Virus record (IMG/VR): IMGVR_UViG_3300046331_000053
Span: 1-41,771 of that record
Length of the DNA: 41,771 bases
Origin: a virus
Direction: 5' to 3' (one strand)
The translations under genes and the position numbers were made by a program. This document shows positions 33,134-38,767 of the stretch, piece by piece (within the stretch, counting starts at the first letter, position 1; each line of letters starts with the position of its first letter). A model generated the notes under the pieces. The model saw nothing but the letters and a program-made list of their open reading frames with translations, searched no databases and was not told the origin of the DNA.

Positions 33134-35647
33134 TTAGGCAAAGCAGTAGCGACTGTTCACCACCTCAGAGAGATCCAGGGTGCCACGCTGAGGCAGGGCC
33201 TCGAGTTTCTCCCGGTTCTTCTCGGAGAGCTGCTGGAGAATCTCATCCCGAAAGGACTCGATCACATCCACGTCTCCGTACATCTCCACGAAGCCCTCTC
33301 GGACGGTGTGGTAGAGCTGCTCGACATCCCCTGCTGTGGTCCCGAATGAGTCGTGGATCATGGCGAAGTTGTCGATGCCTGCCTGCTTGGCCCTCGTCAC
33401 GGTCAGCATCATGTGGGCTGCATCGCAGGAGTGGACAAAGTTGGGGGCGATCCCTGAGGACTGCTTGCGGCGGTCCAGATTGTCCTTGTCCTGGTACATG
33501 GTCAGGTACACCAGCTTCCCGTTGATCGCGGTCTTGACCTTGCGCTTCTCCAGATCGGCATAGGCCTGCATCACGGGGAAGCCCACAGCGGTGGACCAGC
33601 GGACAGGGAGTTCCTCGGATGCTGCCAGAGAGGCGGCACCTTGGAGCCACTTCATGGCCTCACCGGCCTTGACCAGCACCTTGTTCACGGAGACCCAGAT
33701 GGCCTTGGCCATGTACTGAGCAGCCTGATAGCCATCACCCTGGAAGGGGAAGGGCTTGTTCGACTGCTTGGCGGGACGCAGGATGTCCTCCATGAGCTGC
33801 TCCTTGAAGCCGTACTCCTTGGACCCGTAGGCCAGCGTCATGACGGATCGCTTGGTCACCTTGCGGGTGATCCCAAACTCCTTCCACTGGGCAGCGATGG
33901 CCTTGGTGCCGTGCTTGACGTAGGCCACCCCGGCTTCGGTGTGCTTCAGCTCGTCCTCGGTACCATGCACCATATCATGCTCGACCTGCTCCATGACCTT
34001 GTTGGCCACCCGCTGGTAGACATCCGCAGGGAGTTCCTGAGGCACCAGGTTTACAGCGCCACCTCCGACTTCATCTCGGAGCATGGCACTAAAGTGCTGG
34101 ATGCCAGAGCATGAACCGTCCATAGCCACGGGCAACTTTGATACGAACGACTCACCATGCTCGACGAAACCTGCCCACTCGAAACAAAACGCAAGGAATT
34201 GCCAAGGTTTGTCAATTTCAACACTGCCCACTGCTGAGCACCAGCCTCGGTGATTGTACGGATCAGCCGCAATTGCAATAATTTCATCTTCATTATCCTG
34301 TACCCAATTGACACGGTCTTCAAAGCTGGCCTTGTCGTAGCCTGCTACGTTGGCACCGTGGATAGCCAACCATTTCCAACCCTCGGACCCCAGGGGTTTG
34401 CCATTGGCGAACCGCAGGAGGGCCTTCTGAAAGTCTGCACCCTGAGGATTGAGGTGCGGAACTGCGTAGATGCGCCCACGGAAATCCAACTGGTAGGGCA
34501 TGTGGATCTTGCGGAACTTCTCGTAGCGACGAGCGATCCCTAGAGCCATGTTGAAGCCGATCCTGTGGCCCAGCAGGGACAGGTTCTGGACGTGGATCTT
34601 CGCCGCCTTGATCCGGTACTCCCGCTTGGCCTCTTCGTTGGTGTCGATGTCGTGCGGCTTGGTGGGCAATGGGAGACCTTCCCGTGGGGGCAACCCTGCG
34701 ATCTCCGAGCCGGTGGCCCACAGCTCCTCCATGACCTCCAGCACCTGGCTGTTGATCTGCCATGCGGTCCTCTGCAGGGCGTTGATGGCCTCGTAGACGA
34801 TGGGCATGTCGGTGTTCTTCAGCTCGTCCAGGTAGGCCCTGTTCTTGGTCTTGACCATTTTCAAAGGCTTGATGTTGGAGCTGATGTAGCCGCCGTTGAA
34901 GGGGGTGGACCAGTCGCGGGGGATGACCACCATGGGTTCGTAGACGGGGCGCAGGAACTGGGTGACCTCGTTCTTTTTCTCGATCCAGTCGAGGGTCTCA
35001 GGCAGGGCCTTCACGTACTTGATGGACTGGTCCTTATCGACCTTCTGGTGGGTTAGCTCGACAAGACCCACGGACTGGATGCACAGGTCGAGGAGCTTGA
35101 CCCCCACGTGCAGGCGGTCAGTCCGCACCCACCGCTTCCAGCCATCCTCGAGACGATCCGCCTGACGCACGGCGTACATGTGGCGGTAGTGACCTGAGGT
35201 CCGCTTCTTGGCCCCGATGACCAGCTTCTCGTATGCCTTGCGCTCATTCTCCCGAATCAGGCTGAAGCGCAGCTCGTCCTCCACAGCCGACCCTATGGCC
35301 ACTCCGACGAACTGGAGGGTCCTCAGGCTGGAGATGCCCGACAGGACGCTCTTGAGGGTCAGGAAGGCCAGCAAACGGCTGTCTACGTCCTTGACCTTGG
35401 GGTAGGTCGCCGAGCGCACCCCGGCTGATCCTTTGGAGGTCGTTGCTTTCCACTCGTCGATGGCCTTGGAGAGGACCTCCAGGCGGTGGGACAGGATGGT
35501 TGCCCCATAAGAGGTGGACTCCTCACGTCCCGCTCCAATGGCCTTGGAGACATCCCGGAGGTACTTCTCAGCCCCCCTCTGTGTCATCCCCTCTTCCAGT
35601 TGAATCTGGAGGGTCATCAAGTCTTCTTCAAGAGTAAAGTTTTGCAT
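33134..35647 (-). CDS. Single-subunit RNA polymerase, T7 gp1-like
   Basis: The 837-residue polymerase (T7: 883) has all catalytic motifs: DFRGRIYAVPHLNP, motif A MDGSCSGIQHFSAMLRDE (catalytic Asp near 507), motif B TKRSVMTLAYGSKEYGFK (near 605), motif C MIHDSFGT (near 767) and the C-terminal SRYCFA. It should transcribe from the conserved 18-base motif found at seven sites. The ATG at 35647 follows AGGA; a TTG two codons upstream is rejected. The gene is separated from the early operon by a terminator and lies next to a phage promoter copy, so an autogenous loop is likely. Confidence 0.97.
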   Translation of the reverse strand: MQNFTLEEDLMTLQIQLEEGMTQRGAEKYLRDVSKAIGAGREESTSYGATILSHRLEVLSKAIDEWKATTSKGSAGVRSATYPKVKDVDSRLLAFLTLKSVLSGISSLRTLQFVGVAIGSAVEDELRFSLIRENERKAYEKLVIGAKKRTSGHYRHMYAVRQADRLEDGWKRWVRTDRLHVGVKLLDLCIQSVGLVELTHQKVDKDQSIKYVKALPETLDWIEKKNEVTQFLRPVYEPMVVIPRDWSTPFNGGYISSNIKPLKMVKTKNRAYLDELKNTDMPIVYEAINALQRTAWQINSQVLEVMEELWATGSEIAGLPPREGLPLPTKPHDIDTNEEAKREYRIKAAKIHVQNLSLLGHRIGFNMALGIARRYEKFRKIHMPYQLDFRGRIYAVPHLNPQGADFQKALLRFANGKPLGSEGWKWLAIHGANVAGYDKASFEDRVNWVQDNEDEIIAIAADPYNHRGWCSAVGSVEIDKPWQFLAFCFEWAGFVEHGESFVSKLPVAMDGSCSGIQHFSAMLRDEVGGGAVNLVPQELPADVYQRVANKVMEQVEHDMVHGTEDELKHTEAGVAYVKHGTKAIAAQWKEFGITRKVTKRSVMTLAYGSKEYGFKEQLMEDILRPAKQSNKPFPFQGDGYQAAQYMAKAIWVSVNKVLVKAGEAMKWLQGAASLAASEELPVRWSTAVGFPVMQAYADLEKRKVKTAINGKLVYLTMYQDKDNLDRRKQSSGIAPNFVHSCDAAHMMLTVTRAKQAGIDNFAMIHDSFGTTAGDVEQLYHTVREGFVEMYGDVDVIESFRDEILQQLSEKNREKLEALPQRGTLDLSEVVNSRYCFA

Positions 35648-35684
35648 TTCCAAAGGTTCCTGTTGTGGTGGTAACTATAGGTTA

Positions 35685-35810: not shown

Positions 35811-35880
35811 GTGCAAGGTGTTGTCACATCCTGTGACACATAAGTTGTCACTTCCTTGTCTCCCTGCAAGGGTTGTCTAT
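35811..35880. repeat. Cluster of GTTGTC(ACA) integrase arm-type sites
   Basis: Within 70 bases lie AGTTGTCTAG, GTTGTCACAT, CTGTGACAC (inverted), AGTTGTCACT and GGTTGTCTAT. The same GTTGTCACA word recurs around both tRNA-Leu fragments further on. Such spaced, short, imperfect repeats beside an att core are typical of tyrosine-integrase arm sites. The identity is inferred. Confidence 0.55.
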
Positions 35881-35913
35881 GAGCAATAGATGTCAGGTGG
35901 CAACTCTTGCGTC

Positions 35914-35949
35914 AAAACGAAAAGAACCCCTTGGTTTACAAGGGGTTCT
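35914..35949 (-). terminator. Rho-independent terminator upstream of the polymerase gene
   Basis: The minus strand has GAACCCCTTG, a 5-nt loop and CAAGGGGTTC, then TTTTCGTTTT. The stem is 10 bp and perfect. It lies between the attP-like site and the polymerase gene and should stop early or cassette transcripts before the polymerase. Confidence 0.88.
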
Positions 35950-35974
35950 CTTCAGGCTTCGTTAGGGAAACTCT

Positions 35975-36027
35975 TGGTGCGGTCGAGAGGACTCGAACCT
36001 CCACGGATCTCTCCACTAGCACCTCAA
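35975..36027 (-). other. attP-like core 1: 3' half of a tRNA-Leu(GAG) gene
   Basis: On the minus strand the sequence runs from the anticodon loop (TTGAGGT) through the 3' anticodon strand (GCTAG), a class II variable arm GGA-GAGA-TCC, a T-arm with TTCGAGT, and an acceptor strand CGACCGC with A and encoded CCA. The 5' half (GCGGTCG acceptor and D-arm) is absent, so this is not a functional tRNA gene but the crossover segment of a tRNA-targeting phage. It shares 30 identical bases at the 3' end and 13 at the anticodon end with core 2; only the variable arm differs. Confidence 0.8.
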
Positions 36028-36049
36028 TCATGTTGAGATGAGCAATATC

Positions 36050-36157
36050 AATCACTTAGGTTGTCACAAGGACTCCAAAATTGACTCGAAATGTCACAGC
36101 TAGAGGCCTGTGACAACTCGATTTTTGGGCCTTCTGAGGGGTCTGAGGTGTGACAAC
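36050..36157. repeat. Arm-type repeat block next to attP-like core 1
   Basis: GGTTGTCACAA (36059), AAATGTCACAGCT (36089), CCTGTGACAACTC (36107) and GTGTGACAAC (36148). The first three recur in the same order and nearly the same spacing beside core 2 (37346, 37375, 37394), while the bases between them differ. That pattern indicates conserved protein-binding sites. Confidence 0.6.
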
Positions 36158-36163
36158 GAATAC

Positions 36164-36619
36164 TTAGCTGGGAATCTGGCCTGGAGAGCTATTCTTCTCC
36201 TCGAGTTTGGCTTCGGCAGCTCGGACGGCTGCGTATGGGGAATAGTCATCCCAATCCATGCAGTCGTCTATTTCCTCATCCGTCAGCCCAACCCATTGCC
36301 GCTGTGCCTGTTTGAAAATTTTTGAGCAGCCCACTTCAGACCGTGGTTCGGTGGAATTTTTCAAACCCTGCTCTGGCTGTGCCAGTCCTCCAGGTCGGTA
36401 GGCAATGTCATCAGGTGTCCACGCATCATGCACTGACGCAGGCAGGGACTCGAACCCCGCACCACTCTCCGTCACCGGAGGCTCTACCCTTGGAGCTACT
36501 GCGTCTAAACCTGCTTGGAACCCGAAAGCGAAACACGCCTCAGGGTCGTCCTTCCACTCTTGACTGAGTCGCTTCCAAGCCTCCTGTCGGAGGCGTTGAG
36601 CTGTGCGGCCATCCATCAT
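36164..36619 (-). CDS. Cassette gene B, unknown; contains an embedded tRNA-like sequence
   Basis: The 151-residue protein (MMDGRTAQRLRQEAWKRLSQ, then a C-terminal WVGLTDEEIDDCMDWDDYSP and AAVRAAEAKLEEKN) is not recognised; the C-terminal style is frequent in small early proteins of betaproteobacterial phages. The middle (AGLDAVAPRVEPPVTESGAG) is encoded by a stretch that reads as a near-tRNA on the same strand. The gene overlaps the preceding gene by 4 nt and ends just before attP-like core 1. It is part of the cassette bounded by the two cores. Confidence 0.6.
   Translation of the reverse strand: MMDGRTAQRLRQEAWKRLSQEWKDDPEACFAFGFQAGLDAVAPRVEPPVTESGAGFESLPASVHDAWTPDDIAYRPGGLAQPEQGLKNSTEPRSEVGCSKIFKQAQRQWVGLTDEEIDDCMDWDDYSPYAAVRAAEAKLEEKNSSPGQIPS
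36435..36505 (-). ncRNA. tRNA-like element with a collapsed anticodon loop
   Basis: The minus strand folds as a tRNA: acceptor GACGCAG/CTGCGTC (7 bp), T8-A9, D-arm GCTC-8 nt-GAGC with GGG in the loop, and T-arm GCGGGG-TTCGAGT-CCCTGC. The anticodon arm is CTCCG-GTGA-CGGAG, with a 4-nt instead of a 7-nt loop, so no readable anticodon remains. No CCA is encoded. It may be a decayed tRNA, a tRNA mimic or a former integration target. It lies entirely inside a protein frame. Confidence 0.45.
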
Positions 36620-37122
36620 GCTGCACCCCCAGTCGCCTTGGCGATGGCTGAGCGAGCCTTTGCACTAGCGGCCCGAAGCGCATCGTCTCGGGCGAACCTC
36701 GCCTCCTGGTCCTTGCGGCCCTTGTATCTGGTGAACTCGTCTGAGCAGCAGATGCAGCCACCCTGATACCCAAGGCCGTGCTTTTCGCAGATCCACCCCC
36801 AAGCCGTCTCTCCTGGCTTTCTCATCTCGCTCTTCGGCCAGACGAAATCGGAGGGATCTCCGTAGGTGGTCATCTCTTGGGCTGCTTGAAGCTCCTTCAG
36901 CACCTCCAGCAGCTCCTGGTTAACCGCATAAAGTCGGCGGAGTTCGACAGATGCGGAAGTGGCGGTCTTGTAGTGCCCCCAATTTGCTGTGGCTTCAGGC
37001 GGGCAGTCACAGTCGTGGGCCACCTTGAGGTGATCAGCAGCATCTTCAATCAGCGCATCAGCCAGTCGAAGCACCTCTGGTTGCTTCTGAAAGCTATGTA
37101 ATTTATCTAGTGACTCGTTCAT
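36616..37122 (-). CDS. Cassette gene A, unknown, with a Cys cluster
   Basis: From the ATG at 37122 the protein has 168 residues (MNESLDKLHSFQKQPEVLRL). A helical first half (LRRLYAVNQELLEVLKELQA) is followed by WGWICEKHGLGYQGGCICCS, which could bind a metal, and an Ala/Arg-rich tail (ALRAASAKARSAIAKATGG). Codons upstream to 37212 would cross the arm sites and are rejected. It is first in the cassette, behind promoter candidate 2. Similar tails are common in phages of Burkholderiales, which is a hint about the host only. Confidence 0.65.
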   Translation of the reverse strand: MNESLDKLHSFQKQPEVLRLADALIEDAADHLKVAHDCDCPPEATANWGHYKTATSASVELRRLYAVNQELLEVLKELQAAQEMTTYGDPSDFVWPKSEMRKPGETAWGWICEKHGLGYQGGCICCSDEFTRYKGRKDQEARFARDDALRAASAKARSAIAKATGGAA

Positions 37123-37156
37123 GATTTGTTCCAAATAAAAGACGTGACTCACCCGT

Positions 37157-37178
37157 GGTGTCACAGGAGTTGTCACAA
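37157..37178. repeat. Arm-type sites on the cassette side of core 2
   Basis: GGTGTCACAG (37157) and GTTGTCACAA (37169) lie in tandem between the start of cassette gene A and promoter candidate 2. With the block at 37346-37406 they flank core 2 on both sides, as arm sites flank an attP core. Confidence 0.5.
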
Positions 37179-37198
37179 AGTTAATGAAGTGGGGCTGT

Positions 37199-37219
37199 GC
37201 CCAAGTGTGCAACCATTAG
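37199..37219 (-). promoter_or_regulatory. Phage RNA polymerase promoter candidate 2 (cassette)
   Basis: The minus strand reads TAATGGTTGCACACTTGGGC. It lies between attP-like core 2 and cassette gene A, so the cassette carries its own lytic promoter. Confidence 0.75.
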
Positions 37220-37259
37220 GGAGCTTGTGACTAAGCTGTTGATTTCACACCACAAATTG

Positions 37260-37314
37260 TGGTGCGGTCGAGAGGACTCGAACCTCCACCCCCTTTCGGG
37301 GACTAGCACCTCAA
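37260..37314 (-). other. attP-like core 2: 3' half of a tRNA-Leu(GAG) gene
   Basis: Same composition as core 1: anticodon loop TTGAGGT, GCTAG, variable arm CCCC-GAAA-GGGG, T-arm with TTCGAGT, acceptor strand CGACCGC, A and CCA, again without the 5' half. It lies just past the integrase stop, the classical attP position. The variable arm is different from core 1 but folds as well, so each core looks derived from a functional tRNA-Leu gene. Confidence 0.8.
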
Positions 37315-37336
37315 GCTGTACTTACCGTGTCTTTCC

Positions 37337-37406
37337 AATCACTCAGGTTGTCACAACATCCCTAAAAGGAGTCCAAATGTCACAGCTCAATGTCCTGTGA
37401 CAACTC
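37337..37406. repeat. Arm-type repeat block between core 2 and integrase
   Basis: AATCACTCA leads into GGTTGTCACAA (37346), then AAATGTCACAGCT (37375) and CCTGTGACAACTC (37394). It is the counterpart of the block beside core 1 and ends 4 nt before the integrase stop. Confidence 0.6.
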
Positions 37407-37410
37407 AGTT

Positions 37411-38448
37411 TCAACAGTTCACAGCCCTCAGGAGAGGAACTGTGGATACTTGCTCAAGGGCTTCACGGCCAATGGCAAGACTGTCAGGTGCGAGGTGGGC
37501 ATACCGCAGTGTGGTGGCGATGTTGGAGTGACCCATCCACTGCTGAACCACGGCTAGGTTGACGCCCCTCTGGACCATCCGAGATGCACACGTATGGCGC
37601 AGCATGTGGATGACGAACTGAGTGTCATCGTCCATCCCGAGGTGGGACTTCAGAGCCAGCCAACGTGCCCTCAGGGTGTGGAACTGGAAGTCGAAGAGCT
37701 TCCTGTTGACAGACCTGCGGGTGAGGATCTCGGACACCCTACGGGTAGCCGGGACAGCCCTCGCCTTGTCACTCTTGGTGGACCCAGCGTGGAGCTGGAC
37801 CATCCCGTTGACGAAGTCGTTGGACACGAGGCCCAGCAGCTCCGACCTACGGAAGCCAGTGTCGATGGCCACCACGATGAAGTCCCTGAGATCGTCCAGA
37901 CCCAACTGGGTGCAGGCGTTCAGGACCCTCAGCTCTTCCTGCTCGGCCATCCACCTGATGCGGTGCTTGCCAGGCTTCCTGCGGGGTAGCTTGGGGACAG
38001 CATTGATCCACCCCTGCTCCGCTGCGGTGTTCAGCATCTTGGAGATGTGGGACACCTTGCGGTTGACCGTAGAGCCTGAGTTGCCCTCATCCTCCCATTC
38101 TTCGATGGCCTCTAGGACCGCTGCGGGAGTGATATCGGTCAGCAGTGTCTGACTCGGGATGGTCCGAAAGACACAATTGATGGTCACCTCGTGGCATTGC
38201 TTGCCCTTGTCGCCCTTCCAATAGAGCCTCCAGGTGAGGTCGTGGGCATCTTGTAGTGTGTAGCCCTTAACTTCCTCTTTTGGAGGGCTTGTAGAGGGTT
38301 TTAGAGGGCTTCCTGAGGCTTTCCAGCGAGTCATTGCCTCAAGTTCAGCGATTTCTGCTTCCTGCTTGGTGTTGTAGGACTGCCGGAACCTATGTCCCTT
38401 GCTTCCCACGCTCACCATCCAAGAGCTTCCCCTTTGGTATATCGGCAT
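37411..38448 (-). CDS. int: Tyrosine integrase
   Basis: This 345-residue recombinase integrates and excises the phage genome. It has an N-terminal arm-binding-like domain (MPIYQRGSSWMVSVGSKGHR), a core-binding SAM-like part (about 60-150) and the catalytic domain with R200 (TGFRRSELLGL), K225, H281-x-x-R284 (HMLRHTCASR), H307 (WMGHSN) and the nucleophile Y316 (TTLRYAHL). All catalytic residues are present. The start has TAGGAG seven bases upstream although it overlaps the regulator gene by 59 nt. A temperate T7-like phage is implied; related cyanopodoviruses and pelagiphages with integrases also use tRNA-Leu. Confidence 0.96.
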   Translation of the reverse strand: MPIYQRGSSWMVSVGSKGHRFRQSYNTKQEAEIAELEAMTRWKASGSPLKPSTSPPKEEVKGYTLQDAHDLTWRLYWKGDKGKQCHEVTINCVFRTIPSQTLLTDITPAAVLEAIEEWEDEGNSGSTVNRKVSHISKMLNTAAEQGWINAVPKLPRRKPGKHRIRWMAEQEELRVLNACTQLGLDDLRDFIVVAIDTGFRRSELLGLVSNDFVNGMVQLHAGSTKSDKARAVPATRRVSEILTRRSVNRKLFDFQFHTLRARWLALKSHLGMDDDTQFVIHMLRHTCASRMVQRGVNLAVVQQWMGHSNIATTLRYAHLAPDSLAIGREALEQVSTVPLLRAVNC

Positions 38449-38767
38449 TTAGATCTCCTACGAGTTTGTTGATGGCAGTTCGACCCTTAGCTGTGAGTCT
38501 GATGATCTTCTTTCGGCGCTCCATAGGGTCTTCAAAGGACTCTATGAGCAGTAGTCCCTCCTCTCTGTGTCTGTTCTGTTTGCCAAGAGCGGCAACATAA
38601 CGGGAGGCAGTGGCTAAGCTAATACCCACTTTGGAGGCTATTTCTGTAAGTGATAACCCATCTTTTGCTTGGGCAATCACCAGAAGGCAGTGAAGTTGCT
38701 GTAGAGGCATCTCTGACTCTATTCTAGCGACCCCTTGTATGAACTTGAGGTATTCCTGAAGTGACAT
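38390..38767 (-). CDS. MarR-like winged-helix regulator
   Basis: The 125-residue protein reads as a single winged helix: MPLQQLHCLLVIAQAKDGLS, LTEIASKVGISLATASRYVA (helix-turn-helix, about 40-59), then a wing with EGLLLIESFEDPMERRKKII and RLTAKGRTAINKLV. The MarR-type layout is clear though short (usual length about 140). It is coupled to the integrase and stands opposite a divergent gene, the position of a lysogeny regulator. Its operator is unknown; palindromes at 40328-40348 and 38807-38822 are candidates. No metal or ligand site is evident. Confidence 0.8.
   Translation of the reverse strand: MSLQEYLKFIQGVARIESEMPLQQLHCLLVIAQAKDGLSLTEIASKVGISLATASRYVAALGKQNRHREEGLLLIESFEDPMERRKKIIRLTAKGRTAINKLVGDLNADIPKGKLLDGERGKQGT

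Follow-up and report, generated by a model that had tools for sequence, protein, structure and literature searches.

The attachment site of a temperate T7-like phage has probably received a small, non-autonomous cassette without an integrase by site-specific recombination within the 13-bp tRNA segment TTGAGGTGCTAGT. The window (the whole stretch of 41,771 nucleotides that was analysed) carries two attP-like cores in the same orientation, 1285 bp apart, between the genes for a tyrosine integrase (int) and the RNA polymerase (RNAP). These two sites appear to be hybrid attPs, formed when an integrase-less element was joined site-specifically to the phage. The first-pass annotation had recognised two attP-like sites around a discrete 1.3-kb cassette, and this is supported, with all boundaries falling inside the core. 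The sites do not look like one site doubled and retained; in each, a native arm appears to be joined to one brought by the cassette. The features of the region are collected in Table 1.

Table 1. Features of the int-RNAP region of the window. Arms are labelled native or cassette-borne according to the reading preferred in the text; arm-word positions are distances from the core.
Feature	Position	Strand	Description
T7-like RNA polymerase (RNAP)	33134..35653	-	downstream of the attachment region
Native RNAP-side arm of core 1	35811..35974	-	terminator hairpin at 35919-35953; words +124 to +148
Core 1	35975..36027	-	3' half of tRNA-Leu(GAG); variable arm GGAGAGATCC, native type (compare GGAGAAATCC in L003)
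Cassette-borne int-side arm of core 1	36028..36157	-	words -128, -88, -71, -41; 87% identical to L005
Cassette gene B	36164..36619	-	151 aa; no family match; C-terminal module common to small phage genes
tRNA-like element inside gene B	36434..36505	-	4-nt loop replaces the anticodon loop
Cassette gene A	36616..37122	-	168 aa; no family match; first ~40 codons common to the L005 cassette
Cassette-borne RNAP-side arm of core 2	37123..37259	-	words +84, +96; no terminator; 97% identical to L005
Phage promoter motif copy	37197..37216	-	ATGGTTGCACACTTGG
Core 2	37260..37314	-	3' half of tRNA-Leu(GAG); variable arm CCCCGAAAGGGG, arriving with the cassette
Native int-side arm of core 2	37315..37411	-	words -88, -70, -41; 96% identical to single-core L004
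Tyrosine integrase (int)	37411..38448	-	full length; catalytic motifs R, HxxR, H, Y conserved
Winged-helix (MarR-like) regulator	38390..38767	-	upstream of int; candidate directionality factor

The window is a 41.8-kb virus record with T7-like gene content, including genes for an RNA polymerase, single-stranded DNA-binding protein, endonuclease I, amidase, primase-helicase, DNA polymerase, head-tail adaptor and terminase. The T7-type RNA polymerase, the adjoining tyrosine integrase and the attachment site together mark it as a temperate T7-like phage. The integrase matches phage integrase families (phrog_1), and its gene is mosaic, with the 5' part closer to the related contig L003 and the 3' part closer to another, L004. 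As in the window, integrase-bearing Autographiviridae have a MarR-like regulator and a tyrosine integrase immediately ahead of the RNA polymerase. One of these, the temperate T7-like phage LUZ100, has a MarR-like regulator, a tyrosine integrase and an attachment region upstream of its RNA polymerase, as well as a tRNA-Leu sequence near int (PMC10134795). The layout also resembles that of Bordetella phage BB8 and Rhizobium phage RHEph21. However, in all three phages the int-RNAP interval is simple and contains no cassette.

Both cores are 3' halves of tRNA-Leu(GAG), each spanning the anticodon loop through to the CCA end. Either core, when joined to a host 5' half, yields a tRNA-Leu(GAG) call in ARAGORN. 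The identity, position and orientation given to the cores at first pass hold. They share one block of 30 identical base pairs (35975-36004 and 37260-37289) and a second of 13 (36015-36027 and 37302-37314). The variable-arm stretch between the two blocks differs (GGATCTCTCC versus CCCCTTTCGGGG), and a short stem is possible in the variable arms of both cores despite this difference. Since either core rebuilds the tRNA, integration of the phage through either one should be possible.

The arm words TGTCAC/GTGACA occur on both sides of each core, and a word scan (one mismatch at most, both strands) confirms this part of the first-pass annotation. The 1.6-kb region contains 16 words of the TTGTCACA type; elsewhere in the window no stretch of that length has more than four. 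The int-side words lie at -88, -70/-71 and -41 from the core, at both sites of the window and at nearly all sites of its relatives. Between the int-side arms of core 1 and core 2 all word bases are identical (18/18), as against 45 of the 76 bases between the words. The claim that the words are kept in order and spacing while the intervening bases have changed is therefore exact for the int side. On the RNAP side, however, the spacing differs. At core 1, and in nearly all single-core phages, words at about +124, +137-138 and +148 lie behind a terminator hairpin, whereas at core 2 a phage promoter motif stands between the core and words at +84 and +96, and there is no hairpin. The different spacing, the lack of a hairpin and the promoter suggest that this arm is part of the cassette and is built differently. 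In the only other two-core phage found (L005), core 2 retains just the outermost of its three int-side words, the other two being lost. This loss and the +84/+96 spacing indicate that one site of the pair may be inactive, and the description of 'two maintained sites' is thus only partly right.

Related phages were gathered by an integrase search and three core-pattern scans. A complete int-RNAP interval is present in 13 related contigs (L003, L004, L006, L007, L008, L009, L011, L012, L014, L016, L019, L074 and L078), and in each it contains one core in ~470 bp, with no room for a cassette. Single-core relatives without the cassette, which the earlier reading had led one to expect, thus exist. 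The seven long records that were scanned whole (six of them 41-43 kb) also carry a single core each. Contigs L098-L101, from a broader core scan, are not relatives and do not carry this integrase. Two cores were found in two phages, the window and L005/L015, and the L005 contig ends 237 bp past core 1. The filled L005 and the empty L003 come from one metagenome (3300042549). The interiors of the two cassettes differ, with two genes in the window and three in L005, and only the gene ends are common to both. The empty relatives, the second filled relative and the position of the boundaries in the core fit gain or loss mediated by the integrase. That near relatives are without the cassette suggests that the phage's own integrase may be able to load and unload small groups of genes.

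Comparison with individual relatives places the boundaries precisely. The window is 93-100% identical to the single-core contig L004 up to core 2 and diverges from it behind core 2. With L003 the order is reversed: the two are unlike before core 1, and 90% identical from core 1 through its RNAP-side arm and the leader up to RNAP. The outer arms on the int side of the window and L005 are 73% identical, and the inner arms 97% and 87%. All of these switches in identity occur at the 13-bp TTGAGGTGCTAGT, which corresponds to the anticodon loop and stem of the tRNA. Removal of the cassette in silico between the two copies of TTGAGGTGCTAGT leaves a 512-bp interval that aligns end to end with those of single-core phages (88% identity to L004 and 86% to L003). 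Excision of the L005 cassette in the same manner gives an interval 92% identical to that of L003. Outer arms as in the single-core relatives, inner arms common to both cassettes and a switch at TTGAGGTGCTAGT point to hybrid attPs.

A hybrid pair of this kind most likely arose by accretion. The cassette would have lain in the host chromosome at tRNA-Leu(GAG), flanked by sites recognised by this family of integrases, and a phage integrating beside it would have produced a tandem at one tRNA gene. The junction within the tandem would be a complete attP, composed of the int-side arm of the phage and the RNAP-side arm of the cassette. Recombination between the outermost sites would then excise phage and cassette together as one circle, which would carry a second complete attP with the int-side arm of the cassette and the RNAP-side arm of the phage. 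In the resulting phage, core 2 would have the native int-side arm and the RNAP-side arm of the cassette, and core 1 the int-side arm of the cassette and the native RNAP-side arm, and these are precisely the combinations observed. A crossover in the anticodon loop should carry the variable arm along with the RNAP-side arm, which also agrees with the sequence. Insertion of a cassette circle directly into attP would be an alternative route to the same product.

If core 1 recombined with core 2, the cassette should be lost and a single-core phage restored. As an account of its history, a cassette controlled by the integrase appears well supported, and excision between the two cores is plausible even today, since the integrase is intact. 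Placed between int and the terminator and preceded by a phage promoter, the cassette genes could be transcribed by the phage polymerase or along with the lysogeny operon.

The main rival to a cassette that the integrase can move is a fossil, which is possible though doubtful: site-specific entry would be old, one site would now be dead and nothing would move, so that the segment amounts to an ordinary insertion of accessory genes. The odd arm spacing at core 2 and the words missing from core 2 of L005 are what such a history would leave behind. However, every arm of the window has word matches, both tRNA halves are intact, and the cargo differs between the two cassettes while their ends are conserved. 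The same spacing and word loss count against the mobile reading, as do the finding of only two filled phages, the early end of the L005 contig and the lack of a cassette copy in 397 genomes of the presumed host family.

Exchange of the flanks around the cassette by homologous recombination between phages, with no part played by Int, seems unlikely. The mosaic integrase gene is in keeping with such exchange, but the identity switches fall in a stretch where only 13-16 bp are shared, which is short for homologous recombination, and they coincide exactly with the expected cut of a tyrosine integrase that uses the tRNA anticodon loop. Tandem duplication of the attachment region within one phage, with later divergence and genes slipping in between, is very unlikely even though the int-side words have the same order and spacing at both sites. 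It does not predict inner arms that agree between the window and L005 together with int-side outer arms that differ between them and resemble those of single-core relatives. The RNAP-side arm of core 2, with its promoter between core and words and no terminator, is also of another make than a duplicate would be.

Two attachment sites serving two different hosts would account for the differing variable arms, and the variable arms of these phages do match different host genera. This is a most improbable reading: on integration the phage itself brings in the stretch that differs, which is not part of the anticodon-loop overlap, and apart from this stretch the two cores, overlap included, have the same sequence. 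An assembly chimera through the shared tRNA repeat is scarcely credible: the record does derive from a metagenome and the core is a repeat common to many phages and hosts, but with differing variable arms only 13-16 bp are common at the junction, below usual assembly overlaps, and the same cassette ends recur between other flanks in a second contig.

The presumed hosts are indicated by the tRNA genes that contain the core. When any variable arm is allowed, the exact core is found in 48 alphaproteobacterial contigs, most of them from Hyphomicrobiales, and all 15 of those checked with ARAGORN are tRNA-Leu(GAG) genes. The variable arm GGAGAAATCC, native in the relatives, matches a Beijerinckiaceae genome (L035), and the variable arm AACTTAACCGTT matches Rhodoblastus and Alsobacter. 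From these matches we infer that the hosts belong to the Beijerinckiaceae/Rhodoblastus/Alsobacter group. No chromosomal copy of the cassette turned up in 397 genomes of the presumed host family. The matches to its DNA there were all short; several involved tRNA-Leu(TAG), and another a C-terminal peptide that is shared. Phage contigs were the only place where the cassette was seen. A plasmid search likewise returned only short matches of the tRNA type. An integrase search detected no close prophage in the 397 family genomes (E <=1e-70) or in 397 genomes of the order (E <=1e-45), and yielded only three integrases, with ~34-36% identity.

Accretion next to ICEs and IMEs is known for cis-mobilizable elements, or CIMEs (PMC5704250); for ssrA islands that lack an integrase it has been proposed (PMC3146451). 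The two-core cassette is this known process in a new setting, a T7-like phage. Like an accreted element, it is an att-bounded segment in tandem with an integrase-bearing element and has two hybrid att sites. It is bounded by two direct cores with arm words on both sides of each, carries no integrase or transfer genes of its own, and adjoins an intact integrase and native arms of the same type. Unlike CIMEs, its carrier is the genome of a T7-like phage, it is 1.3 kb long, with a phage promoter and two or three small phage-like genes, and its movement is a prediction. No case matching the two-core form came up in the papers searched on double or tandem attP sites of natural phages.

The cassette also resembles phage morons in that it adds small genes with their own promoter which are absent from close relatives. 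Morons are not usually bounded by attachment sites, whereas here the boundary is the attachment core itself. As in integron cassettes, variable cargo lies between sites for a tyrosine recombinase, beside the recombinase gene. However, there is no array, the element carries its own promoter, there is no attC-type site, the sites are tRNA-type attPs with arm words, and the integrase matches phrog_1; assignment as an integron cassette was rejected. A phage satellite (PICI or P4-like) was also rejected, as the two cassette genes include no integrase, replication or packaging-interference gene.

There is little room for cargo in T7-like phages. If their integrase does move cassettes in and out at attP, this would be a form of gene gain that leaves the phage intact and does not depend on homologous recombination, and accretion would extend from conjugative islands to this phage group. 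As a tentative extension, the attP of these T7-like phages might be a capture platform, at which integrase-less cassettes are inserted, exchanged and dropped by the phage integrase. In that tentative scheme each cassette would bring its own complete attP, a promoter for the phage RNA polymerase and variable cargo, and the cassettes would form a swappable, population-wide pool, somewhat like that of integrons.

The promoter, two genes and tRNA-like element previously read between the cores are all present. The promoter motif occurs in six copies in the window versus 0.09 expected. The tRNA-like element scores 30.1 bits with the Rfam tRNA model (cut-off 29) and is not called by ARAGORN. Searches of the window's cassette genes against Pfam and PHROGs produced nothing significant, and specifically no integrase or transfer gene; one gene of the L005 cassette belongs to phrog_1273, of unknown function. 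Among viral contigs, gene A and the cassette ends were found in L005/L015 only, and gene B gave matches to its C-terminal module only; the genes that share this module are small phage genes too, and one lies in the L004 early region. The tail WVGLTDEE...EAKLEEKN recurs in several unrelated viral contigs and in that same early region. Because the ends of the cassette genes are modules of other phage genes, the cargo resembles a mosaic of ordinary small phage genes. As a guess, these would be accessory genes that act in the lysogen or early in infection. The AIAKATGGA tail of the cargo is also present in one host-family genome, and the start of gene A is similar to a protein of Acidovorax phage ACF1.

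The variable arm of the attP-borne tRNA differs from phage to phage with its stem pairing preserved (the window and the related phage contigs L003-L019, L074 and L078). Some of its versions match particular host genera exactly, and the arm could be used as a host marker. Another tRNA-like element lies within a cassette gene. Its predicted fold is strong, with a 4-nucleotide loop where the anticodon loop is expected, and its 3' half resembles a host-family tRNA-Leu(TAG). The element may be a relic, either of some other attachment core or of what was once a phage tRNA.

The related two-core contig L005 carries different cargo. One of its three cassette genes is assigned to phrog_1273 (HTPGPW-type), and two of the three end in similar C-terminal tails, KATGGAV and KASGGAV. 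The same tail, as AIAKATGGAA, is found at the end of a small gene in a host-family genome (contig L084), which is adjoined by a tRNA-dihydrouridine-synthase-like gene.

The integrase gene has a mosaic make-up: over the first 500 bp it is closer to L003 (95%), and over the remainder to L004 (97%), both single-core contigs that lack the cassette; homologous exchange is therefore also at work here. The motif ATGGTTGCACAATTGGA is matched six times in the window against 0.09 expected and is probably the promoter of the phage RNA polymerase.

Positions of the features in the window and in related contigs
Feature	Position	Strand	Remarks
L005 cassette genes	L005:7328-8150		n = 3; other than those of the window
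Small gene with AIAKATGGAA tail	L084:1183-1536		host-family genome
Integrase gene	37411-38448		mosaic
Motif ATGGTTGCACAATTGGA	21934, 31027, 33116, 35776, 37216, 41088	-	repeated; 6 matches
tRNA-like element	36434-36505	-	within gene B; scores 30.1 bits with the Rfam tRNA model
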